Positions 13,931 to 27,895 of a DNA stretch of 64,000 nucleotides are shown here, piece after piece (the stretch's first letter is position 1; the number at the start of each line of letters is the position of its first letter). The position numbers and the translations under genes were made by a program. The notes under the pieces were generated by a model, which worked only from the letters and a program-made list of their open reading frames with translations, had not been told where the DNA came from and did no database searches. Origin of the DNA: an uncultured Anaerolineae bacterium (lineage in GTDB: Bacteria > Chloroflexota > Anaerolineae > Aggregatilineales > Phototrophicaceae); the NCBI GenBank assembly GCA_937944445.1, contig CALDYP010000045.1:1-64000 (forward strand). The letters are read 5' to 3'.

Positions 13931-15748
13931 TCACCATGCCATGATGTTGAGAGACGTCAACGGCAGCAGGCCGTCTTGGTGCGCGGCCTCAGGCAGGATG
14001 CGCTGACCATCCCACCACTGATACACCCCTAGCAGCAGCGTCCAGTCGCTGTGGAACGCCACATCCGGCACGCGCACGGTGCGCTCTTCGACGTAGATCA
14101 CGCCCGGCTGCCATTGGCTGGTCTGCTCGGGCAAGCGCTGCGTGGCCGTTGGGTCAAGGTGAATGAGGTGCGGCGCGCCGTCTGACTGCGCTAGGCTGCC
14201 ACTGGCGTTCATCAGTTGAAGCGTCACGCTTAAATCGACCTCCAGCGGCCCCTCCGCTGACCACCACAGGCGCACGGTCAGCGTCTCGCCCTCGCGCCGC
14301 ACCAACGGCTCATAGCTGAAGCGCTCACCCTCCACCACGTGGAAGCCGTGAAAACGCATGCCATTGGCGAAGCGCACCCCTGCCGAGTCAGGTGGCCCCT
14401 CATAGAGGCGTATGAGCAAGTCCCACGGGCCGACGAACTTAGACGGAATGCGCCCCGCGCGGACGGCTGCCAGCGTCGCGGGGTCTTGGTCGCCGTCGCG
14501 GCTGACGTACCACACGCGCGCGTAGCCTGTTGGATCGCTCACCCAGCGTAAGCCCATCGGCACGTAACGCTGCTGGTAGAACGTCCACTCCATCGGGCTG
14601 CCACACGCGCAGCGTGGATCCATCAAGAACACGTCGCCGCGCTGGAAATATGGGGCGGCTGCGCGCAGGGTATGCTCCAGCGGCAGCGGCATAAACGGAT
14701 AAGACACATAGTCGAACGAAATGAACATCGAGAGCGCCGCCGCCCCCATCAGCGCCCAGCGCCCAACAGAGGGCACGCTGCTGAAGACCGCCGCCGCCAA
14801 CAGCGCCAGCCCCCCGCCGATCCACCATGAGTACTGCGTGCTGAAGAACCCCAACACGCGATCCAGCAGGTAGACGACCAGCGGCAGCGCCACCACCCAC
14901 CCAGTCAGCGCCAGCCCATCGCGCAAGGTCAGCCGCCGCCGCATCAACAGCCATCCCGCCCCGACGACCAAGCCCAGCGCCCACACCGGCGCATACACCC
15001 CGAAGAACTCGGCGATGATGGCAGCCCAGCCCTCGCTGAACGGCGGCAGCGCATCCCCCAACCCGGCGTGGCGACGGGTGACGACGCTCAACTTGGCCAC
15101 GATCTCCGGCAGCGCCAGCCCCAACGCCGCCACGCCCGGCAGCCACCAGCGCCACACACGGCGCGGGTAATACACCAGCGACAGCCCGCCCATCAGCGCG
15201 AAGAACACCACCGACGTTAAGTTGGTGTAGAACATCGCCGCCATGACCGCCCCCAGCAGCGCGCCACGCCGCCACGTCGGACGGTCGAAGTAGGCGAACA
15301 GCGCCAGCAGCGCCAGCGGCATCCACAGCAGCATGAGCACATACGCGCGGAAGTACCCGCTCAAGAACACGTAATAGCCCAACGCCGCGAACGCCAGCAG
15401 CGCCCCGACGCCCGCTTGTGGATCGCGCCACCAGCGCCGCCCGAGTTGATAGACCGCTGCGCACGCCAGCAAAAAGATCAAGACCGATGAATAGCGCAGC
15501 GTCAGCGGGTCGCCGCCTGTGAGGCCTTGCCACATCCACAAGATCACGAAGTAGAGCGGCGGCCAGTCATACGGCATCCACAACAGGAGGTTGTCGAACG
15601 TGGACGAGGTATGCCACGCATGCCACACCTCATCGTAGTTGAACTGACGCTGACCGAGGAAGACCATCCGCGAGAAGAACACCAACGCCAGCAGCGCTGT
15701 CAGCAGCCAGAGGTGGCGGTGAGTGTTCGTCAGCTTGATCGGGTTCAT
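13931..15748 (-). CDS. GT39-like membrane glycosyltransferase with C-terminal beta-sandwich-like domain
   Basis: The 605-residue protein begins MNPIKLTNTHRHLW and has roughly ten transmembrane helices to about residue 400. The first extracytoplasmic loop carries FNYDEVWHAWH, the acidic motif of GT-C enzymes, followed by WPPLYFVILW. The final 200 residues are soluble: a region with a CACG cysteine pair near 410 and then a strand-rich domain (about 480-600) of the type often appended to surface glycosyltransferases. The ATG overlaps the murE stop as ATGA, so translation is coupled to murE. A longer frame into murE has no support. Sugar and acceptor are unknown. Confidence 0.82.
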   Translation of the reverse strand: MNPIKLTNTHRHLWLLTALLALVFFSRMVFLGQRQFNYDEVWHAWHTSSTFDNLLLWMPYDWPPLYFVILWMWQGLTGGDPLTLRYSSVLIFLLACAAVYQLGRRWWRDPQAGVGALLAFAALGYYVFLSGYFRAYVLMLLWMPLALLALFAYFDRPTWRRGALLGAVMAAMFYTNLTSVVFFALMGGLSLVYYPRRVWRWWLPGVAALGLALPEIVAKLSVVTRRHAGLGDALPPFSEGWAAIIAEFFGVYAPVWALGLVVGAGWLLMRRRLTLRDGLALTGWVVALPLVVYLLDRVLGFFSTQYSWWIGGGLALLAAAVFSSVPSVGRWALMGAAALSMFISFDYVSYPFMPLPLEHTLRAAAPYFQRGDVFLMDPRCACGSPMEWTFYQQRYVPMGLRWVSDPTGYARVWYVSRDGDQDPATLAAVRAGRIPSKFVGPWDLLIRLYEGPPDSAGVRFANGMRFHGFHVVEGERFSYEPLVRREGETLTVRLWWSAEGPLEVDLSVTLQLMNASGSLAQSDGAPHLIHLDPTATQRLPEQTSQWQPGVIYVEERTVRVPDVAFHSDWTLLLGVYQWWDGQRILPEAAHQDGLLPLTSLNIMAW

Positions 15749-17274
15749 GGTTGGGCTGTCGGGAGCGTCTTGAGAGGCGCGCCGCGCAGCGCCGCCCGCA
15801 GCGCCTCGCGGTCGTCCCACGGGTATTCTACTGTGCCGAAGCACATGCTCTGCTCGTGCCCCTTGCCGCAGGCGATGACGATGTCACCCGCCCGCGCCAT
15901 CTGGCAGGCGACATACAGCGCTTCACCGCGATCAGGCACGCGGAAGAACGTCACGCCCTCCACGCCGCCCTGACGCAGGCAGCCCTGCGCCATCATCTCA
16001 AGGATGTCGTCGAGCGACTCCGTGCGCGGGTCTTCAGCGGTCAAGATAGTGAGATCGGCCAACTGCGCCGACGTCTCGGCCATCATGCGGCGCTTGTCGA
16101 CATCGCGCAGGCCCGCGCTGCCGAACACCGCGATGAGCCGCCCGCCCGCGCCCAACATCCCCCGCGCCGCCGTCAAGGCCTGCTTCAGCGCGTTGGGCGT
16201 GTGCGCAAAGTCTACTATCGCAAGGAACGGCTGCCCCTCGTCGATGGCTTCCATCCGACCGCTGACGCCGCGCACCCGCGCGAGGCCGCTCTGCACGTCT
16301 GCCGCGCCCAACGCGCGCGCCGTCGCCACGGCTGCCAGCACGTTCGACACGTTGAACTGCCCGTAAAGGTGCGATTGCAGCACGTCGCCGCTCGTCAGGG
16401 TGATCGTCGTGCCCTGCGGTGAGTAGGCGAACTGCGCGGCCTGCACGTCCGCTGGATGGTCGATGCCATAGCGCACGACGCGATCGGCTGGAATGGCCGC
16501 CAGATACTCGCACGATGGGTCATCGACGTTGACGACGCTGATCTTGGGCTGGTTGGGTTTGCGCGCGCTGCGCATCAAGCCGCGGAAGAGCAGCGCCTTC
16601 GCGTCGCGGTAGGCTTCCCATGTGCCGTGATAGTCGAGGTGCTCATGGGTGATGTTGGTGTAAACGGCCACGTCCACGTCGACGCCGTTGAGCCGCCCCT
16701 GCGCCAGCCCGTGGCTGGTCATTTCCAGCACGACGTGCGTCAGGCCTGCGTCGCGCATCATCGCCAAGTAGCGCTGCACCTCCGGCGCGGAAGGCGTCGT
16801 CACGTGCAGGCCGGTCGACAGGCTCTGCCCGCCAAAGTCAGCGCTGATCGTGCTGATGAGGCCGACGCGCCCGCTCGTGTGCTCTTTGAGCAGCTCATAG
16901 ATCAGCGTGCTGGTCGTCGTCTTGCCGTCCGTCCCCGTCACGCCGATCACGATCAGATCGCGCGAGGGGAACCCGTGAAACGACGCCGCCAGATACCCCA
17001 GCGCGGCCATGCCCTCCGCCACGCGCACATAAGGCACAGGCAGATCAATCAGCGCCTGCTCGCCCACCACAGCCGCCGCGCCGTTGGCGATGGCCTGCGG
17101 GATGAAGGCGTGGCCGTCAGCGCTGCGGCCTGCCCGCGCTACGAACACCCCGCCCGGCTGGACAAGCGCCGCGTTTTCCTCAAACGGCGCGCCAATCAAC
17201 ACATCTGCATCGCCTGTGATCGACCGCAGCGCCCCAGCAGGGAGCGCTTGAAGATGAGTTAAGAGAGACTGCAT
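15745..17274 (-). CDS. murE: UDP-N-acetylmuramyl-tripeptide synthetase (MurE)
   Basis: The enzyme (about 509 residues) adds the third amino acid of the peptidoglycan stem peptide. It has the Mur ligase plan: an N-terminal UDP-binding domain with PGGVFVARAGRSADGHAFI, the ATP-binding motif GVTGTDGKTTT near residue 110, a central domain with LEMTSHGLAQGRLNGV and NITHEHLDYHGTWEAY, and a C-terminal domain with AEDPRTESLDDIL. That DPR box corresponds to the residue-3 selectivity loop; meso-DAP enzymes usually have DNPR, so lysine, ornithine or DAP cannot be decided. The ATG at 17274 lacks a clear ribosome site; a GTG at 17286 is an alternative. It lies 40 kb from the dcw cluster and heads a glycan gene unit. 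Confidence 0.93.
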   Translation of the reverse strand: MQSLLTHLQALPAGALRSITGDADVLIGAPFEENAALVQPGGVFVARAGRSADGHAFIPQAIANGAAAVVGEQALIDLPVPYVRVAEGMAALGYLAASFHGFPSRDLIVIGVTGTDGKTTTSTLIYELLKEHTSGRVGLISTISADFGGQSLSTGLHVTTPSAPEVQRYLAMMRDAGLTHVVLEMTSHGLAQGRLNGVDVDVAVYTNITHEHLDYHGTWEAYRDAKALLFRGLMRSARKPNQPKISVVNVDDPSCEYLAAIPADRVVRYGIDHPADVQAAQFAYSPQGTTITLTSGDVLQSHLYGQFNVSNVLAAVATARALGAADVQSGLARVRGVSGRMEAIDEGQPFLAIVDFAHTPNALKQALTAARGMLGAGGRLIAVFGSAGLRDVDKRRMMAETSAQLADLTILTAEDPRTESLDDILEMMAQGCLRQGGVEGVTFFRVPDRGEALYVACQMARAGDIVIACGKGHEQSMCFGTVEYPWDDREALRAALRGAPLKTLPTAQP

Positions 17275-17325
17275 GAGCCGTGTCACCGTGTGGGTTGAAG
17301 CTGCTTGAGCGCTTTAACATCCTAA

Positions 17326-17388: not shown

Positions 17389-18204
17389 CTAGCCCAGACG
17401 CCCCGACAGCTCGTTCAGGCCGCTGCGCACGCTGCCATCCACCACGCGGTTCGCGCTGCGCACGACCACGCCGCCGAGGATGCTCGGATCGACCGTGAAC
17501 GTCACCTCTTCCGCGTTGAGGGCCTGCTTGGCGCTGGCCTGCTCCGCCTCGGTCAAGGGCATCGCGCTGATGACCTCTACCTTGCCGCCGAGGTTCTTGG
17601 CGGCGTCTGGCACGTTGCTGAAGAAGTTGCTGACCAGCTCGGCCTGCTTTTTCGCGTCGATGTTGGCGTTCAAGATGCGACCGGCCATCGCCACGCTGAT
17701 GTCTACGACGCGGTCGCGCAGGCCAGCCAGCTCCGCGTTGCGCGCGGTGACGGCCTCGGCTTGGGCGTCGCTGCGGATCTTGTCTGCTTCGGCGCGGGCT
17801 TCAGCGGTGATCGTCTTGGCGACCTCTTCAGCGCGGTTGCGCGCCTCTTCGATCATCTTGTTGCCCTCAGCTTTGGCGTCCGCGATGATCTTGGCCGCGT
17901 CGGCTTCAGCGTTCTGGCGGGCGCGCGCAGCCGCTGCCGCGTCTTCCAGCCCGCGCTTGATCTTCTCCGTGCGCGCGTCCAGCATGTTGAGCGCGGGCCG
18001 CCACAGCAGCACCGTCAAGATGGCCGCCACCAGCAGGAAGTTGAACGTGTGCACGATCAGCAGGCCGCCGTTGATGCCCAGCGGGGTCAGCGGGTTGTCG
18101 CTGCCGGCGGCTTCAGCGGCGTAGGCGGGCATCGTCGCCAGCGCGACGACGGCCAACGCCGCCAGCCCTTTCAAAAGTCGCTTCATGTTCGTCATGGTCA
18201 TCAT
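17389..18204 (-). CDS. ATP synthase b subunit fused to the C-terminal domain of delta
   Basis: The 271-residue protein has three parts. Residues 1-33 look like a signal peptide (KRLLKGLAALAVVALATMPA then YAAEAAG). Residues about 46-200 are a b subunit: a membrane helix with LIVHTFNFLLVAAILTVLLW, then a long charged coiled coil and a VAMAGRILNANID end. Residues about 205-271 match the C-terminal beta domain of delta: GGKVEVISAMPLTEAEQ, VDPSILGGVVVRS and VVDGSVRSGL. The N-terminal helical domain of delta, which contacts alpha, is missing. The protein would form the peripheral stator. It follows atpE after 24 bases; alpha, beta, gamma and epsilon genes are not next to it. The start has AGGGGAG 8 bases upstream. 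Confidence 0.85.
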   Translation of the reverse strand: MMTMTNMKRLLKGLAALAVVALATMPAYAAEAAGSDNPLTPLGINGGLLIVHTFNFLLVAAILTVLLWRPALNMLDARTEKIKRGLEDAAAAARARQNAEADAAKIIADAKAEGNKMIEEARNRAEEVAKTITAEARAEADKIRSDAQAEAVTARNAELAGLRDRVVDISVAMAGRILNANIDAKKQAELVSNFFSNVPDAAKNLGGKVEVISAMPLTEAEQASAKQALNAEEVTFTVDPSILGGVVVRSANRVVDGSVRSGLNELSGRLG

Positions 18205-18228: not shown

Positions 18229-18507
<279 letters not shown>

Positions 18508-18551: not shown

Positions 18552-20168
18552 TTAGTGATGCGCCGCCGCTGCTTCGCCGTGGCCATGCTCTTCGTCGTCG
18601 TGGTGGTGGCTGACCATCGCCTGCGCGCTGAAGATCAACGTCAGGATCGAGAAGACCGCCGCCTGCGCCACGCCGATGATGATCTCGAGCAGCAGGATGA
18701 TCGCCGGGATGGTCGTGCCGACCAAGAACAGGATCACCGCGAACAGCACCGTGCCCGCGAACAACGCGCCGAAGAGACGGAACGACAGCGACACAATCTT
18801 ACCCAACTCTGAGATGATCTCAAACAACCCGACGATGAAATCCACCGCGCCGAGCGGGCGCTTGCCGATGTTGCCGATTGCGCCGATGTTGATGAACTTC
18901 TGGAAGTAGGACAGGCCCAGCTCGCTCACGCCGAAGTACTGGATCACGACGAACGACAGCAGCGCCAAGCCGATGGTGAAGCTCAGGTCGGTCGTCACGC
19001 CGCGCACAAACGGGGCCACCGTGAAGATTTGATTGTGCAGCGTCGTCGCCTTCTCACCCAGCAGTTCTGGGCGGATGACAATCGTCTGGCCGGGGACGAG
19101 CGCGGCGGTGGCGTTGACGCCGGGGGCGGCCTCAGCGGGGGCGGGTTCGGCTTCGGCGGGCGCTGGCTCGGCTTCCGCCTCCACAGGCGCCGGCTCGCCT
19201 TCAGCCTGCTGCGGCGCCACTTCCACAACGGGCAGGCGGCTGTGCGCTTCGCCTTCGCCGTGCTCCTCGCCAGCGGCGGCAGCCTCAAACTGGATGTTCA
19301 CCACCCCGTTGACGGTGTTCGCGGCCACGATGTCCGCAGGGGTGATCGTCAGCTCAGCCCACCCCTCATAGGGCACTTGGACGTAAGAGGACACCTGTAT
19401 CGGGTCAGACTCAGTGCGCGCGGTGATCTCATCGTTGAAGCGCGCGGCGATGCTGGCCAGCGTGTCGCCCTGCTGAACGGTGTACGTCACCTGTTTGTCG
19501 AGGAAGGGGTCAAGCCGCCGCGGCAGATAGTCTTGATAGCGCTGCACGCCGAACATCGCTTGGCACTGCTTGTAGGATTTTTCTGTTGCAGGTGTGCCGA
19601 TGTTGAGCGGCGTCTCGCTGCGGTAGACGAAGTACGGGCGGCCCAAGAAGCTCGTCTCATGCACAGGGAAGCCGTTCAGCGGCTGCGGCTCATAGACGGC
19701 GCAGTGCACCACGCCGATCGTCTCCACGCCCGGCAGCAGCTTGCCCAAATTAGCGGCAAGCAAGAACAAGAACAGCGACGCCACTAGCGGGAAGAGCAGA
19801 TTACGCACGCGCGGCTTGTCGCCTGCTTGCTGCTTCGTCAGCCCCCACAGGCCGTCGATGATGACCTCTACAGCCCCTTGAAAACGGCCCGGCACTTCTT
19901 TCGTCCAGCCGTTGCTGTGGCGGCGCGCGATGAGCGCAATGGCGAACACGATCACCATCGCCAGCACGGCCCCGCCCAGCGAGTTCCTGATCTCGAAGTC
20001 TGCGCTCGGCCAGTGCTTGAGGTAGTACTCAGCCGGCACGGTGATCACGGGCAGCGTCACCGCTTGGCCAACGCCCGGCAGCAGAATGAACGGGATCAAG
20101 ATGCACGCGAAGAATGCAAACGCTAAGAAACCAAGCAGGCCTAAACAACCACGTTGACTCGCACTCAT
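18552..20168 (-). CDS. atpB: ATP synthase subunit a with a large loop insertion resembling a split LysM domain
   Basis: The 538-residue protein is about twice the usual length. The core is a normal subunit a: helix 1 near 62-82, helix 2 near 122-146 (LLFPLVASLFLFLLAANLGK), and the C-terminal helices with the essential arginine in LSFRLFGALFAG (Arg464). Between helix 2 and the helix starting near 395 lies a 240-residue insertion. It contains VTYTVQQGDTLASIAARF (227-244), TPADIVAANTVNG (276-288) and LVPGQTIVIRP (357-367), which in order match a LysM domain interrupted by a 30-residue stretch and a 65-residue Ala/Glu/Pro repeat. This loop should face outwards. The C-terminus is His-rich (7 His in 18 residues). 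A 13-codon upstream reading frame overlaps the start. Confidence 0.93.
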   Translation of the reverse strand: MSASQRGCLGLLGFLAFAFFACILIPFILLPGVGQAVTLPVITVPAEYYLKHWPSADFEIRNSLGGAVLAMVIVFAIALIARRHSNGWTKEVPGRFQGAVEVIIDGLWGLTKQQAGDKPRVRNLLFPLVASLFLFLLAANLGKLLPGVETIGVVHCAVYEPQPLNGFPVHETSFLGRPYFVYRSETPLNIGTPATEKSYKQCQAMFGVQRYQDYLPRRLDPFLDKQVTYTVQQGDTLASIAARFNDEITARTESDPIQVSSYVQVPYEGWAELTITPADIVAANTVNGVVNIQFEAAAAGEEHGEGEAHSRLPVVEVAPQQAEGEPAPVEAEAEPAPAEAEPAPAEAAPGVNATAALVPGQTIVIRPELLGEKATTLHNQIFTVAPFVRGVTTDLSFTIGLALLSFVVIQYFGVSELGLSYFQKFINIGAIGNIGKRPLGAVDFIVGLFEIISELGKIVSLSFRLFGALFAGTVLFAVILFLVGTTIPAIILLLEIIIGVAQAAVFSILTLIFSAQAMVSHHHDDEEHGHGEAAAAHH

Positions 20169-20252: not shown

Positions 20253-20507
20253 TTATTCGCTTGGAAGCTGCTGCTGTGGCAAGCGCTTCACCAACGTCAG
20301 CGTCAGCCAGATCATGAGGGTCAAGCTGAGCGGCACACTCGCCACCAAGAGGCAGATCGTCGCCGGGCCACGCCAGCCCAACTGTGCGTCAATCCAAAGC
20401 CCCAACAGCAGCGCCCCGATCACCAGCACTACCGTCACAAACCCTGAGAGCGCCGTGATGCCTGCAATCCCTAAGTTTTGCAGTCGGCCACGGCGCGCCT
20501 CAGCCAC
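20253..20507 (-). CDS. AtpZ/AtpI-like small membrane protein
   Basis: The 84-residue protein has a charged N-terminus (AEARRGRLQN) and two transmembrane helices, LSGFVTVVLVIGALLLGLW and ICLLVASVPLSLTLMIWLTL, separated by DAQLGWRGP. This is the layout of the AtpZ/AtpI family encoded at the start of F-type ATP synthase operons, implicated in magnesium or calcium handling and c-ring assembly. The GTG start at 20507 follows a promoter (20535-20564) by about 20 bases and begins the atp unit atpZ/I-atpB-atpE-atpFH. Family assignment rests on topology and position more than on conserved residues. Confidence 0.75.
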   Translation of the reverse strand: MAEARRGRLQNLGIAGITALSGFVTVVLVIGALLLGLWIDAQLGWRGPATICLLVASVPLSLTLMIWLTLTLVKRLPQQQLPSE

Positions 20508-22097: not shown

Positions 22098-23804
22098 TTA
22101 CATCCTCCCCAGCAGCATGAGAACGGGGATGATCCCCTCAGTAATCATCGGGGCCATGATGCTCGGATACAGCCCCAACACGATCAGCGGCACGCCCAGC
22201 AGCAGCAGGACGGCGCGCTCCACGATGGTAATCGGCGGCAGTTCGCCGTAGCGCGCGCGGTTGTACTCGCCGAAGAACACCTGACTCGTGACGCGCAGCA
22301 CATACGCCGCCGTGATGACGATGCCCAGCGCGGCCAAGATCACCAAGAACGAGTAGTAGCTGCTGAGCGTCGTCACGCCGAGGTCGAGGCTCACAGCGTC
22401 CGAGGCTTCCCACATGCCTTGAAAGATCGGGAACTCGGCCACGAAGCCGCTGAAGCCCGGCATGCCCATGCTCGTCAAGCCGCCGATGATGAAGAAGACG
22501 CCCGTCCACGGCAGGATCTTCATGAAGCCGCCCAGCGATGGGATGTCGCGCGTGTGGGCGCGGTCATAGACCATCCCCACACAGCCGAAGAAGAGCGCGG
22601 TCATCGCCCCGTGGCTGAACATCTGCAAGCCTGCGCCCGTCATGCCGACCGCGTTCATCGTCGCCCAGCCCATCGTCACCAAGCCCATATGGCTGACGGA
22701 CGAGAAGCCGATGACGTACTTGAAGTCGCGCTGGCGGAAGGCGATCAGCGCCCCGTACACGACGTTGACCGTCGCAAGGAAGACGATCCACGGCAGATGG
22801 GTCTGCGCGCCCTCTGGCATCATCTGCACCGCCGTCCGCAGCGCCGCGAACGCCCCCAGCTTCATCAGCACGCCCGCGTGGATCATCGACACAGCAGTCG
22901 GCGCGGCCACGTGGCCATCCGGCGACCAGTTGTGGAAGGGGAACAAGCCCGCCATGACGCCGAAGCCGATGAAGATGAACGGGAACCAGAACACATCAAA
23001 CGACACCGTGCCCAAGAACGGCAGCGAAAACGCCCCGTTCTCCGCCGCCAGCGTCAGTTGGATCAAGTCGAAGCTGACCGCTGTCGCGTTGGGGTTGATG
23101 ACCCCCGCCGCGATGGCTGCCTGCAAGACCTGCCGCCCGGCCTCCGTCTCGAAGTACGTTGCAGCGGTGACGACCATCGCAATCGCCCCCACCAGCGCCA
23201 CCACCGAGCCGATCAGGATGTAGAGCGTGAGCTTCATCGCTGCGTATTCGCGCAGCTTCACCCAACCCCAGCCTGCGATCAAGATGTACATCGGGAAGAT
23301 CGCCAGCTCGTAGAAGAAGAACAGCAGGAACATGTCCAACGAGATGAACACGCCCATCACGCCCGCCACCAACAGCATGAAGAAGGCGTAGAACTCGCGC
23401 TGCCGATCGCTGATTTGCCAGCTAATCAGCACGCCAGCCACCGCCACCATGCCAGTGAGCAGCACCATCGGCCCGCTCAGGCCGTCCATGCCGAGGTGGT
23501 ACGAGATGCCCACGCTTGGAACCCACGGGATGTTCTCCACGTAGAACTGACGGTCTTTGAAAGCCGCTGTCGCGCGGAAGCTGCCCTCTTCCGCTTCAAC
23601 GGTGGTCTGTGGGATTGCGCCCGCGTTCACCGCGTTGAGGTAGCTGAAGTAGACTAACGCGCTAAGCGACAGCGTCACAACCGCCGACGTGATGGCCACA
23701 CCGCGGATGATGTCGCGGCTGGCAGCCGGAATGAACAAGATCAACACCCCTGCCACGACAGGGATGAAGATCAACGCGCTGAGGACGGGGAACCCAAATT
23801 CCAT
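22098..23804 (-). CDS. nuoM: NADH-quinone oxidoreductase subunit M, second copy
   Basis: The 568-residue antiporter-like subunit has the NuoM signatures ISYHLGMDGLSGPMVLLTG, LFFFYELAIFPMYILIAGW (with the channel glutamate), a central lysine region and FPFHNWSPDGHVAAPTAVSM. Compared with the other NuoM it carries a longer first periplasmic-side loop (about residues 55-95) and an extra segment after helix 6 (about 205-245). It starts 4 bases after the stop of the first nuoM, so both copies are translated from one message. With nuoL and nuoN it gives four antiporter-like subunits. Confidence 0.95.
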   Translation of the reverse strand: MEFGFPVLSALIFIPVVAGVLILFIPAASRDIIRGVAITSAVVTLSLSALVYFSYLNAVNAGAIPQTTVEAEEGSFRATAAFKDRQFYVENIPWVPSVGISYHLGMDGLSGPMVLLTGMVAVAGVLISWQISDRQREFYAFFMLLVAGVMGVFISLDMFLLFFFYELAIFPMYILIAGWGWVKLREYAAMKLTLYILIGSVVALVGAIAMVVTAATYFETEAGRQVLQAAIAAGVINPNATAVSFDLIQLTLAAENGAFSLPFLGTVSFDVFWFPFIFIGFGVMAGLFPFHNWSPDGHVAAPTAVSMIHAGVLMKLGAFAALRTAVQMMPEGAQTHLPWIVFLATVNVVYGALIAFRQRDFKYVIGFSSVSHMGLVTMGWATMNAVGMTGAGLQMFSHGAMTALFFGCVGMVYDRAHTRDIPSLGGFMKILPWTGVFFIIGGLTSMGMPGFSGFVAEFPIFQGMWEASDAVSLDLGVTTLSSYYSFLVILAALGIVITAAYVLRVTSQVFFGEYNRARYGELPPITIVERAVLLLLGVPLIVLGLYPSIMAPMITEGIIPVLMLLGRM

Positions 23805-23808
23805 GTTG

Positions 23809-25419
23809 TTATCCTATCCCGTGCATAAACAGGTGCGTCACCGAGGTGTTGATGACGCTCAAAATCCAGTTAGGCGCAATGCCCGTCACCAAGATCAAGA
23901 CCATCAGCGGGGCGACTGCGATTAGCTCGCGGCGCTCGATCTCAAGGTGATAGTCCTTCCAGTGCAGGTTGAAGGGGCCGTGCAGCACCCCGCGGATGCC
24001 CTTCAAGATGTAGCTGCCAGTGAAGAGCAGGCCGATCATGGCGATGGCCGTTAGCGCGGTGAAGACCGGCCACGAGCCGCGCACCACCAAGAACTCGCTC
24101 ACGAAGCCGTTTAGGCCCGGCAGGCCGAGGCTCGCCATGCTCATGTAGATGAAGATCACGCCGAAGATCGGGGCTTTCACCCACAAGCCGCCGTACTCGT
24201 CGAGGTTGCGCGTGTGCGTCTTGTGGTAGATGCCGCCCGCCAGCAAGAACATCCCTGCGCTTGACAAGCCGTGGTTGAACATCTGAAGCACTGCGCCGTT
24301 GGTGGCGATGATCGCGTTCTGCATCGAGGCGGCATCCAGCCCTGCGCCGGCTGCGTCTGCCCACGCCTTGCCGTAGAGCGCCGCCATCACCGCCAACCCC
24401 ATGCCGACAAAGCCCATATGGTTGACCGAGCTGTATGCCACCAGCCGCTTGATGTCGTTCTGGCCGAAGGCGGCAAACGCCCCCAGCACGATCCCGAGCA
24501 CCGACAGCACCGCGAACAGCGTCGCCACGTCGATCCCAAGCAGCGGAACCTCGCTGATCCACACGTCAGGGAAGAATGGGATCACCAAGCGCAGGAAGCC
24601 ATACGCCCCCAGCTTGAGCATGACGCCCGCCAGCAGCATCGAGCCAGCGGTGGGCGCTTCACCGTGCGCGTCTGGCAGCCACGTGTGGAACGGCCAGATC
24701 GGCACTTTGATGCAGAAGGCGATGAAGAACCCGACGAACGCCAGCGCCTTGACCGTGTTCACCGAGATGCCGAGGAAGGCCGGCGCGTCCGCGGCGAAGT
24801 TTGGCCACGTCGCGGTGATCTGCGCGATCTCATACGTCCCCGCGCTGAAGCCGATCAACTGCGTCGCCAGCAGCATCCCCAGCGTGCCGCCGATGCTGTA
24901 GATCATGAACTTGGTCGAGGCGTAGTGACGGTTCGGGCCGCCCCACTGGTTGATGACGAAGTACATCGGAACCAGCGACAGCTCATAGAAGAGAAAGAAG
25001 ATCATCAAGTCCATGCTGACGAACACGCCCATCAGCCCCGCCTCAAAGAAGAGCAGCAGCGCGAGGTGCGTGTTCGGGCGGTCGTCGATCTCCCAACTGA
25101 TAAGCACCGCGAGCGGCGTCAAGATGCCGGTCAGCAGCACCATCGCCACGCTGATCCCGTCTACGCCCACGTGCCAGTTGGCATCTAGCAGCTGGAACCA
25201 CGGCACTTTCACCACGAACAGGAATTGATCCTGCCCCAGCGTGGCGTTGGCCTGATAGGCGAAGAACACCACGACGCTGATCGCCCCGACGAAGAGCGCC
25301 CCCGCCAGCGCGATCACCCGCGACAGCAAGCGGCTCTGCGGCAGCACCATCAGCAGCAGGCCGATCACCGCCGGAGCGACGATCAGGAAGGATAAGATAT
25401 CAATACCCAAAATCGACAT
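23809..25419 (-). CDS. nuoM: NADH-quinone oxidoreductase subunit M, first copy
   Basis: The 536-residue protein shows WHVGVDGISVAMVLLTGI, FFLFYELSLVPMYFVINQWG (channel glutamate), IWPFHTWLPDAHGEAPTAGS and YSSVNHMGFVGMG, all typical of NuoM proton-channel subunits with 14 helices. It lies between nuoL and the second nuoM with gaps of 10 and 4 bases. The two NuoM proteins are clearly paralogous but diverged throughout, so this is an old duplication, not a recent one. Confidence 0.96.
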   Translation of the reverse strand: MSILGIDILSFLIVAPAVIGLLLMVLPQSRLLSRVIALAGALFVGAISVVVFFAYQANATLGQDQFLFVVKVPWFQLLDANWHVGVDGISVAMVLLTGILTPLAVLISWEIDDRPNTHLALLLFFEAGLMGVFVSMDLMIFFLFYELSLVPMYFVINQWGGPNRHYASTKFMIYSIGGTLGMLLATQLIGFSAGTYEIAQITATWPNFAADAPAFLGISVNTVKALAFVGFFIAFCIKVPIWPFHTWLPDAHGEAPTAGSMLLAGVMLKLGAYGFLRLVIPFFPDVWISEVPLLGIDVATLFAVLSVLGIVLGAFAAFGQNDIKRLVAYSSVNHMGFVGMGLAVMAALYGKAWADAAGAGLDAASMQNAIIATNGAVLQMFNHGLSSAGMFLLAGGIYHKTHTRNLDEYGGLWVKAPIFGVIFIYMSMASLGLPGLNGFVSEFLVVRGSWPVFTALTAIAMIGLLFTGSYILKGIRGVLHGPFNLHWKDYHLEIERRELIAVAPLMVLILVTGIAPNWILSVINTSVTHLFMHGIG

Positions 25420-25429
25420 AACGCTCCCC

Positions 25430-27895
25430 TTAGCCCGCTGTCACAACGCCGCTTGAGACGGCCAAAACGATGCCGATGATCAAGAAGGCGATCAGCACCG
25501 CCAACAAGTACTGCTGAATGCGCCCGGTCTGCGTCCCGCGCAGCCAGCCGCCCAGCGTGTAGATCGACCGCGGGATGCCATCACCCACCCCGTCGATCAG
25601 CCACGAGTTGAGCACCTTGATCAGGTCGCCCAGCCATGTGAAGAACGCGCCGATGGCGTGCAGCGTCCCGTCGATCACGCCGCGGTCGAGGAAGGTGTTC
25701 ACCTGCCGCGCCAGCCACTGCGAGGGCTTCACGAACAGCACGCTGTAGAGGTCGTCCATGTAGTAACGCTTCTGCAGCGTCGTGTAGACCGCGCTGCCGA
25801 GGATGCGCTCCATCGGGTCGGTCTCACCGGCTTGCAGCGGCCGCCGCCCGTACATGCGCCAGCCGAGATACAGCCCGCCCAACGCCACCGCGAACGACAC
25901 CAACACCGGGAAGAGGTTGAACGGCGGGTGGAAGGGCGCGAAGTTCGGCTCTGGCAGCACGGAGAACTCAAGGAAGTGGAAGAAGGGGTTGCCATCGGGG
26001 CTGAAGATCGGCCCGAAGAGGGGGAACTCTTTGGGCACGCCCACGAAGCCCGCGAACAGCGCGAAGAACGACAGGATGATCAGCGGCAGCTGCATCGTGA
26101 TGCTGACGATGCTGCGCGCCCCGCCGAGGCCAGCGTGCTTGGCCTCTTCCGTGCGCGGCTCGCCGAGGAAGGTCAAGCAGATCTGGCGCATCGTGTAGAA
26201 GGCCGTCAGGAAGGCGGCAACCGCCAGCAGGAAGAACACCAGCGCCTGCGGCCCATAGCCCTTGAGCGTGCCGTACCACGCCTCCGCGAGGATCTCATCC
26301 TTTGACCAGAAGCCCGCGGTAATCAGCGGGAAGCCCGCCAGCGCGAAGCCGCCGATCACGAAGCCGACGAACGTCACCGGGATCTTCTTGGCCAGCCCGC
26401 CCATGTTGCGCATGTCCTGCGGGTCGAAGGCGTGGCCGTGGCCGTGTTCTTCATGGTGACCATGCTCGGCGTGGTGGCCGTGGTCGTGCGCGTGAGGGTC
26501 GTCGTGGGCGGCGTGGGCCGCTTCAGGGTGCGCCTCAGCCGCCTGCGCCGTCTCGTAATAGGGGCGTGTTGTCGGCTCTGGCTCGTGGTCGTGCGCATGC
26601 TCGTGCAGGTGATGCGCCCCGTGCTCCATCGCGTGGATGACCGAGCCAGACGCCATGAACAGCAGCGCTTTGAAAAAGGCGTGCGTGATGAGGTGGAAGG
26701 CCGCCGCCACATACGCGCCGATGCCCAGCGCCGCCATCATGAAGCCGAGCTGCGAGATCGTCGAATAGGCCAGCACCGCTTTGACGTCGTTCTGCGCGAC
26801 GGCCATCGTGGCCGCGAACAGCGCCGTAAACGCCCCGACCACCGCCAGCAGCACCAGCGGCAGGTTGTAGACGCCGATGTGTGGGTTGGCCACCCCGCCG
26901 ATGGGGTCGCCCGCGCCGACGAACAACGGGAACATGCGCAGCACCGCGTAGATGCCCGCGCTGACCATCGCCGCCGCGTGGATCATCGCGCTGACGGGCG
27001 TCGGGCCTTCCATCGCGTCCGGCAGCCACACGTGCAATGGGAACTGCGCAGACTTGCCGATCGTGCCGATGATGAGGAAGCTGCCGATCAAGCCGCCCGC
27101 GCTGACCCCCAAGCCGCCGAACAAGATGGCCGGCGCGGTGTTGATCGCGTTGAGCAGCGCCGCATCCTGCATGATCTCGCGGAAGTTGAGCGTGCCCGTC
27201 ATCGTGTACAAGTAGGCGATGCCCAGCAGCATGATCACATCGGCGACGCGCGTCACAGTGAAAGCTTTGATCGCTGCGCGGTAGGCGCTGTGCTTCTCGA
27301 ACCAGAAGCCGATGAGCATGTACGAGCACAAGCCCATCACCTCCCAGCCGACGAACAGCAGCAGCAGGTTGTCGGCCACCGTCAGCGTGAGCATGGCCGC
27401 GGCGAAGAGGCTGATGAGCGCGAAGAAGCGGCTCTGGCGCGGATCGTGCGCCATGTAGCCGATGCTGTAGATGAAGATGCACAGCACCGCAATCGGAACC
27501 ATCACCAGCAGCAGCGCGTTGAGCGGGTCAACCATCACCCCCATGCGGAAGGCCGTCGTGCCGGTTGCCATCCACTCCACCGCGCTGGCGAAGACGACTT
27601 CCTCGCCGAAGTGCCGCACGCCCAGCGCCTGCCCAACGATGTTGAGCGAGATGAGCAGCGCCATCACCACCCCGCTGAGGCCGACCGTCACGCTCAGCAC
27701 ACGGCTGAGGGGCGTCACGACGGGCACGAGCATCCCGTTGTAATCGGGGTGGTGGCCGCCGTATTCGTGGCTCGTGGCCGGGACCAGCCGTGCGCGGTTG
27801 GTGGCGAAGGTGATGATGATGAAGGCCAGCAGCGGCCCGACCGGAACCAGCCACGGCAAAAAGTTAGGATCGTTCAACAACAAGGCTATGTCCAT
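25430..27895 (-). CDS. nuoL: NADH-quinone oxidoreductase subunit L with His-rich insertion
   Basis: The 821-residue protein is about 200 residues longer than E. coli NuoL. The 14-helix antiporter core has FVGWEVMGLCSYMLIGFW (channel glutamate), IGKSAQFPLHVWLPDAMEGP and AYSTISQLGFMM. Between the conserved GSVIHA (417-422) and QDMRNMGGL (493-501) there is an insertion of about 70 residues with 22 histidines plus acidic residues, in runs such as HAHDHGHHAEHGHH. The C-terminus has the YYMDDLYSVLFVKP element and a long amphipathic stretch before the anchoring helix, as expected for the lateral helix that clamps the pumping subunits. It follows nuoK after 12 bases. Confidence 0.96.
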   Translation of the reverse strand: MDIALLLNDPNFLPWLVPVGPLLAFIIITFATNRARLVPATSHEYGGHHPDYNGMLVPVVTPLSRVLSVTVGLSGVVMALLISLNIVGQALGVRHFGEEVVFASAVEWMATGTTAFRMGVMVDPLNALLLVMVPIAVLCIFIYSIGYMAHDPRQSRFFALISLFAAAMLTLTVADNLLLLFVGWEVMGLCSYMLIGFWFEKHSAYRAAIKAFTVTRVADVIMLLGIAYLYTMTGTLNFREIMQDAALLNAINTAPAILFGGLGVSAGGLIGSFLIIGTIGKSAQFPLHVWLPDAMEGPTPVSAMIHAAAMVSAGIYAVLRMFPLFVGAGDPIGGVANPHIGVYNLPLVLLAVVGAFTALFAATMAVAQNDVKAVLAYSTISQLGFMMAALGIGAYVAAAFHLITHAFFKALLFMASGSVIHAMEHGAHHLHEHAHDHEPEPTTRPYYETAQAAEAHPEAAHAAHDDPHAHDHGHHAEHGHHEEHGHGHAFDPQDMRNMGGLAKKIPVTFVGFVIGGFALAGFPLITAGFWSKDEILAEAWYGTLKGYGPQALVFFLLAVAAFLTAFYTMRQICLTFLGEPRTEEAKHAGLGGARSIVSITMQLPLIILSFFALFAGFVGVPKEFPLFGPIFSPDGNPFFHFLEFSVLPEPNFAPFHPPFNLFPVLVSFAVALGGLYLGWRMYGRRPLQAGETDPMERILGSAVYTTLQKRYYMDDLYSVLFVKPSQWLARQVNTFLDRGVIDGTLHAIGAFFTWLGDLIKVLNSWLIDGVGDGIPRSIYTLGGWLRGTQTGRIQQYLLAVLIAFLIIGIVLAVSSGVVTAG

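Follow-up and report, generated by a model that had tools for sequence, protein, structure and literature searches.

Closest described systems

Few parts of the ATP synthase are as constrained as subunit a. The LysM fold serves other proteins as a grip on the cell wall, and a lone LysM is a weak binder. In the solved bacterial subunits a, the loop between helices 3 and 4 (with the amphipathic helix counted; the helix 2-3 loop in the older count, which is used below) is periplasmic, highly variable, and in contact with subunit b (PMC6377231). We compared these systems with a subunit a encoded in the window, by which we mean the whole stretch of 64,000 nucleotides analyzed here, from an uncultured Anaerolineae bacterium. 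The corresponding loop of Bacillus PS3 subunit a (PDB entry 6n2y; PMC6377231) shares the position and the membrane side of the window loop, but it is short, contacts subunit b, and holds no separate domain. The nearest solved subunit a is that of Chloroflexus aurantiacus (PDB entry 9itj and related entries), which was matched at 7.7e-29 by sequence and with TM-scores of 0.69-0.77 normalized to the target. It has the core and the helix 2 exit motif LLPGV-SIGV in common with the window protein; however, it comprises only 312 residues, with ~40 between the matched core segments compared with ~225 in the window protein, and has no room for a LysM. The C. aurantiacus enzyme also has separate b and delta chains, whereas these are fused (bdelta) in the window enzyme. 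Each entry deposited for it holds two a, four b, and two delta chains (36 a and 72 b chains in 18 entries; 12 delta chains in 6).

On the LysM side, the domains of wall hydrolases (Thermus P60_tth, 4uz2/4uz3; Pseudomonas aeruginosa MltD, 8rhf; autolysin, 2mkx) have the same block order and predicted fold as the LysM-like region of the window protein, which superposes on 8rhf and 4uz2 over 47-48 residues at 1.6-2.4 Å and gives a profile match to 4uz2 of 1.6e-6. The hydrolase domains are contiguous over ~45 residues, often in tandem, and located on wall enzymes. In contrast, the predicted LysM of the window protein is single, split by inserts of ~30 and ~70 residues, and embedded in an energy-converting membrane subunit; contiguity is the usual state of the domain and not a strictly defining one. 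Conceptually, the closest precedent comes from Litorilinea aerophila, where a PilO-LysM fusion has been suggested to attach the archaellum, a rotary filament, to peptidoglycan (PMC13319060). As in the window protein, a member of the Chloroflexota carries LysM on a component of a membrane machine, but the carrier is unrelated (pilus alignment complex, archaellum anchoring), and the function is at the stage of a proposal. Although LysM and subunit a are each well known, their combination is new as far as it could be searched. The open-licence literature returned nothing relevant on a wall-binding ATP synthase, in agreement with the initial annotation of this DNA, which knew of no such subunit, and we know of no solved subunit a with an added cell-wall-type domain.

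The subunit a gene and its outer loop

The gene for F-type ATP synthase subunit a (atpB) occupies 18555-20168 on the minus strand, with an ATG start and a stop codon at 18552-18554, and encodes 538 amino acids, as the initial annotation had read it. The protein matches Pfam ATP-synt_A (PF00119) with an E value of 5.4e-31 and 108.6 bits (cut-off, 33.9). The match is divided into two pieces that flank an insert, the second of which covers residues 381-513. The essential arginine was likewise correctly reported as retained. The core and the neighboring synthase genes are as follows.

18555..20168, minus strand: atpB with the LysM-bearing loop (open reading frame and PF00119); no other subunit a was found in the genome
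19734..20168, minus strand: N-terminal part of the core, residues 1-145, with an extra N-terminal TM helix, TM1, the amphipathic helix, and TM2 (AlphaFold helices 3-32, 62-85, 95-115, and 119-142)
18555..18998, minus strand: C-terminal part of the core, residues 391-538, with TM3, helices 5 and 6, and a His-rich tail (AlphaFold; PF00119 at 381-513)
18777..18779, minus strand: Arg464, the essential stator arginine in helix 5 (FRLFG motif; invariant in 41 orthologues)
18229..18459, minus strand: ATP synthase subunit c (PF00137, 9.9e-17)
17389..18204, minus strand: subunit b fused to the C-terminal part of delta (bdelta; PF00430, 2.4e-20, and PF00213, 6.6e-13)

The gene order at the locus is nuoL-nuoM-nuoM-nuoN, a small AtpZ-like ORF, a, c, bdelta, and then a Mur ligase gene, where c, bdelta, and the Mur ligase were named by Pfam and the nuo and AtpZ-like genes by reading the sequence. 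The AtpZ/AtpI-like membrane ORF (84 amino acids, 20253-20507, minus strand) gave no match in Pfam or NCBIfam; its position is conserved, and it is 47-54% identical in relatives. In bdelta, the b region was found at residues 49-178, and positions 103-170 of the OSCP profile were matched at 207-268, that is, only the C-terminal part of delta; the N terminus carries a signal peptide-like extension. The Mur ligase gene (MurE-like, 15745-17286, minus strand) lies directly downstream of the ATP synthase genes. A Mur ligase also adjoins these genes in the related genomes G010, G079, and G081, and in G001 it is found some distance off on the opposite strand. Two tandem NuoM-like genes (22098-25419, minus strand) are conserved in relatives. 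The NuoL-like protein (25430-27895, minus strand; 821 amino acids) contains a long His/Glu/Ala-rich insertion, around HEHAHDHEPEP to HEEHGHGH, which resembles the tail of subunit a in its make-up. The His-rich tail of subunit a itself is on the cytoplasmic side, near the proton exit; for P. aeruginosa, a metal-capped exit channel to which the tail gives rise has been described (PMC12796488).

Transmembrane helices 2 and 3 are separated by a segment of 245 residues, which runs from the end of helix 2 (PGVETIG, 146-152) to PFVRG (386-390) and is composed of the following parts.

19488..19733, minus strand: order-wide extracytoplasmic cap, residues 146-227, common to orthologues across the order (AlphaFold pLDDT 82-96 in the full-length model)
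19701..19703, minus strand: Cys156, first of the conserved Cys pair; a Cys here and another in the loop in 45 of 48 orthologues
19563..19565, minus strand: Cys202, second Cys of the pair; present in all six LysM members and nearly invariant in 41 alignment rows
19437..19484, minus strand: LysM block 1, beta1-alpha1, YTVQQGDTLASIAARF, residues 229-244 (PF01476; G-D-T-L invariant in six species)
19347..19436, minus strand: insert 1, from alpha1 to alpha2, residues 245-274 (mean pairwise identity of 0.29 for most of the insert in six species)
19314..19346, minus strand: LysM block 2, alpha2, ITPADIVAANT, residues 275-285 (position-score test; predicted helix 277-283; Asn284 invariant)
19104..19313, minus strand: insert 2, from alpha2 to beta2, residues 286-355, including an Ala/Glu/Pro stretch (pLDDT <50 at 313-342; identity 0.15; absent or short in the orthologues L055 and L056)
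19068..19103, minus strand: LysM block 3, beta2, ALVPGQTIVIRP, residues 356-367 (position-score test; predicted strand 362-366; G-Q invariant)

The initial annotation had described an insertion of 240 residues. A segment of nearly that length does stand between the two helices, but the ~60-80 residues that follow helix 2, with the Cys pair, occur in nearly all relatives sampled from the order, and are not special to the LysM clade; the first ~60 loop residues were recognized in most order-level matches. In the 45 orthologues with the pair, the first Cys lies no more than 5 residues from the loop start and at least one more follows in the loop, and none of the 48 loops has an odd number of Cys. 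This conserved and always even Cys content fits a disulfide in an oxidizing compartment, which the pair probably forms. The loop of the window protein is also acidic (32 D/E versus 14 K/R), and the connection between helices 1 and 2 is basic. Homology to the solved subunits a, the acidic charge, and the even Cys content together predict with high confidence that the LysM-bearing loop is extracytoplasmic, the side on which it had been placed at the outset.

Evidence for a split LysM domain and its distribution

Our results show that the gene contains three LysM blocks in the expected order, with spacers of ~30 and ~70 residues between them, much as the initial annotation had read them. The Pfam LysM profile (PF01476; cut-off, 20.9 bits) matched the whole protein with 27.7 bits and the loop alone with 30.6 bits. 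The profile search proposed in that annotation thus detects the domain, although the alignment covers only profile positions 1-17 of 43, with block 1 alone above the cut-off, because the domain is split. PF01476 was above the cut-off in the window protein, G001, and G010, and below it in the orthologues L053, L055, and L056. Blocks 2 and 3 were assessed with position scores derived from the other LysM domains of the window genome, by seeking the ordered pair in the rest of the loop and comparing it with 3000 shuffles. The window protein scored 17.6 bits (p = 0.001). Scores of 10.5-25.6 bits (p from 0 to 0.0043) were obtained for the six LysM-bearing orthologues, compared with ≤7.0 bits for 40 orthologue loops that lack block 1.

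Packing of the blocks in a structural model had been set beforehand as a test that could refute the assignment. AlphaFold, run with 41 orthologues, placed a strand at 227-230, helices at 237-252 and 277-283, and a strand at 362-366, with block-mean pLDDT values of about 81-98 for LysM and values mostly <50 in the Ala/Glu/Pro region. A second run with the loop alone and six sequences gave the same order of elements, with the cap poorly modeled. In both models, the blocks pack as one beta-alpha-alpha-beta unit from which the two inserts loop out, and the LysM assignment thus withstood this test. When loop-model residues 79-223 (approximately 224-368 in the protein numbering) were superposed with VIA-align, 47-49 residues aligned with complete LysM structures at 1.6-2.4 Å. 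Z was about 4-4.5, a value limited by size, as a domain this small cannot score high. The top rows were LysM entries, among them 5ylg, with 47 of 47 residues aligned at 1.6 Å, and P. aeruginosa MltD LysM, with 47 at 1.6 Å. Foldseek also ranked LysM chains first for the loop model, with E values that were not significant (best, 1.4); therefore, we base the structural claim on the superpositions by VIA-align together with the block statistics. With the full-length model, only ATP synthase subunits were among the matches listed by Foldseek, because the core dominates. Together, these data support with high confidence a predicted LysM fold with two bulging loops in subunit a.

Insert 2 is largely predicted to be disordered and is of low complexity. 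Its Pro-rich stretch interrupts the LysM fold from within, beside the edge of the sugar groove. As part of the fold, and lacking in two relatives, it is neither a spacer nor the arm of a tether. The second insert is no more than short in L055 and L056; the stretch is thus either a late addition within the LysM clade or was lost in these two.

We searched for further LysM-bearing loops in 154 genomes of the order and then in samples of about 400 genomes from the class and about 400 from the phylum. The full LysM loop was found in six genomes only (G000, G001, G010, G079, G078, and G081), with none beyond these in the order genomes or in the class and phylum samples. In a tree of the core, calculated with the loop left out, the six LysM species form one clade (support, 100/99) with one change needed. 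Most simply, the LysM would therefore have been gained once and then kept; the core tree does not call for more than one gain. G078 and G081, which are binned in the genera g6 and g17, have subunits a of the LysM clade (L055 and L056), unlike their genus mates. Because the other members of g6 and g17 have different subunits a, horizontal transfer or a binning error is possible for these two genomes.

Each of the six genomes yielded one subunit a, including G079, which is a single-contig genome, and a gamma subunit is present in all six. With one subunit a and one gamma found per genome, we rejected the reading of the protein as a paralogue. An alternate N-type ATPase is not favored, as TIGR03306 and TIGR03321 score far below their cut-offs.

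Loop length among relatives ranges from 50 to 276 residues. In the sister clade (L004-L008, L014, and L054), the loops are 219-276 residues long and filled with a Glu/Ala-rich, coiled-coil-like stretch. The enlarged loop with its Cys pair is a feature of the whole order, and LysM is one clade's filling of that loop. The initial annotation had missed this order-wide enlargement with the Cys pair, the restriction to one clade, the different filling in the sister clade, and the location of the Pro-rich stretch inside the fold. Within the LysM clade, the mean pairwise identity of the six species is 0.56 in beta1-alpha1, 0.39 in alpha2, and 0.53 in beta2, and 0.29 and 0.15 in the inserts. All six share GDTL, the Ala of alpha1, the Asn that follows alpha2, and the GQ of beta2, which are the signature positions of LysM.

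Possible roles of the LysM-bearing loop

We judged a wall-positioning role to be the most likely function, followed by a structural or protein-binding role, with a functionless passenger less likely, since the split fold has been kept. In the explanation that we consider best, at about even chances, the LysM of subunit a is a putative glycan binder that positions the synthase at the wall. The domain would have been inserted into an already enlarged, probably disulfide-stapled outer loop of the sole subunit a found in the genome. Its groove may weakly bind GlcNAc-containing wall glycan, and this grip would keep the synthase, by its stator side, near the peptidoglycan, which could slow diffusion and place or space the complexes. 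If there are two a subunits per complex, as in the C. aurantiacus deposits, each complex would present two LysM domains, and avidity could offset the weak affinity of a single one. Proton transport itself should be unaffected, because the core is intact. More tentatively, and at somewhat less than even odds, we propose that the putative LysM grip, possibly through two a subunits, anchors the ATP synthase to the wall and so fixes the site and density of the oxidative phosphorylation machinery in the membrane.

The sugar groove bears directly on this proposal. In structures of LysM with chitohexaose, the S1-H1 and H2-S2 loops flank the sugar, which makes many main-chain contacts (PMC4356369). 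An alignment by eye with Thermus P60 LysM1 showed that Val21, Gly24, Thr26, Leu27, and Leu52 are kept in the window protein (Val231, Gly234, Thr236, Leu237, and Leu357), whereas Tyr28, Arg32, Phe50, and Gln53 are replaced by Ala238, Ala242, an Ala, and Val358. The S1-H1 loop is thus conserved with its backbone-contact positions, and several side-chain contacts are changed. The Thermus mutant Y28A/R32A/F50A/Q53A lost only about threefold in affinity, with the second LysM intact (PMC4356369), and even the canonical LysM domains of the window genome differ from one another in their pocket side chains. Weak glycan binding by the subunit a LysM is therefore plausible. Insert 2 belongs to the H2-S2 loop at the border of the sugar pocket, which it could cover. 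Short segments hold the domain on both sides; therefore, the LysM is probably close to the membrane and possibly out of reach of the wall. Peptidoglycan glycosyltransferases (PF00912) were found in all six LysM-loop genomes, three or four in each.

The main rival explanation, less likely in our estimate, is that the LysM fold has been kept as a structural or protein-protein module with sugar binding lost, packing on the cap, on the outer ends of b, or on a second a and stabilizing the FO stator. The equivalent loop of Bacillus PS3 makes a periplasmic contact with subunit b and has been suggested to take the place of subunit f of mitochondria (PMC6377231), and the N-terminal extension of bdelta may reach the side on which the LysM is predicted to lie. 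The Glu/Ala-rich, coiled-coil-like stretch of the sister clade, which is of similar length, is not expected to bind sugar. Read against the chitohexaose structures (PMC4356369), the pocket side chains are not conserved among the six species; however, the canonical LysM domains of the window genome vary there too, making this weak evidence for a loss of binding, and the pocket-lining GDTL and the GQ turn are invariant.

An outer loop that tolerates almost anything might instead have received the LysM by recombination and retained it without function. The range of loop lengths among relatives, the wide variation of the loop sequence among species (PMC6377231), and the low complexity of insert 2 are compatible with such a passenger. 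Under neutral drift, however, the split blocks would be expected to be erased. The inserts have indeed drifted, to 0.15-0.29 mean pairwise identity compared with 0.39-0.56 in the blocks, but the fold-defining residues of all three blocks are intact across the six species, even where overall identity to the window protein has fallen to about 53%. We thus regard a passenger as improbable.

Still less probable is binding to another glycan, such as a surface polysaccharide or a glycosylated outer layer of the multilayered Chloroflexota envelope. LysM domains recognize GlcNAc-containing polymers in general (PMC4356369), and Litorilinea, also of the Chloroflexota, has extra layers outside the peptidoglycan (PMC13319060), but peptidoglycan is the GlcNAc polymer expected nearest the membrane, and the genes for its synthesis are present. 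An artefact, in which the loop is cytoplasmic or the gene mis-assembled or frameshifted, is already largely refuted: the window genome is a draft (92 contigs, 81% complete), but the frame is open throughout, the topology follows the solved homologues, and both architecture and gene order (nuoL-M-M-N, AtpZ-like, a, c, bdelta) recur in other genomes, including a single-contig one. Because six genomes share the architecture, we rejected chance or mis-assembly as its source.

If the LysM works as a wall grip, this would be the first ATP synthase known to us with a built-in wall anchor. It would also offer a clean handle on whether bacteria control the position and mobility of their respiratory machinery, in which the domain could be removed and the motor left untouched. 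Should the LysM do no more than scaffold protein contacts, the enlargement of the loop throughout the order still suggests an evolutionary docking site on the outer face of subunit a, one that sister clades have filled in different ways.
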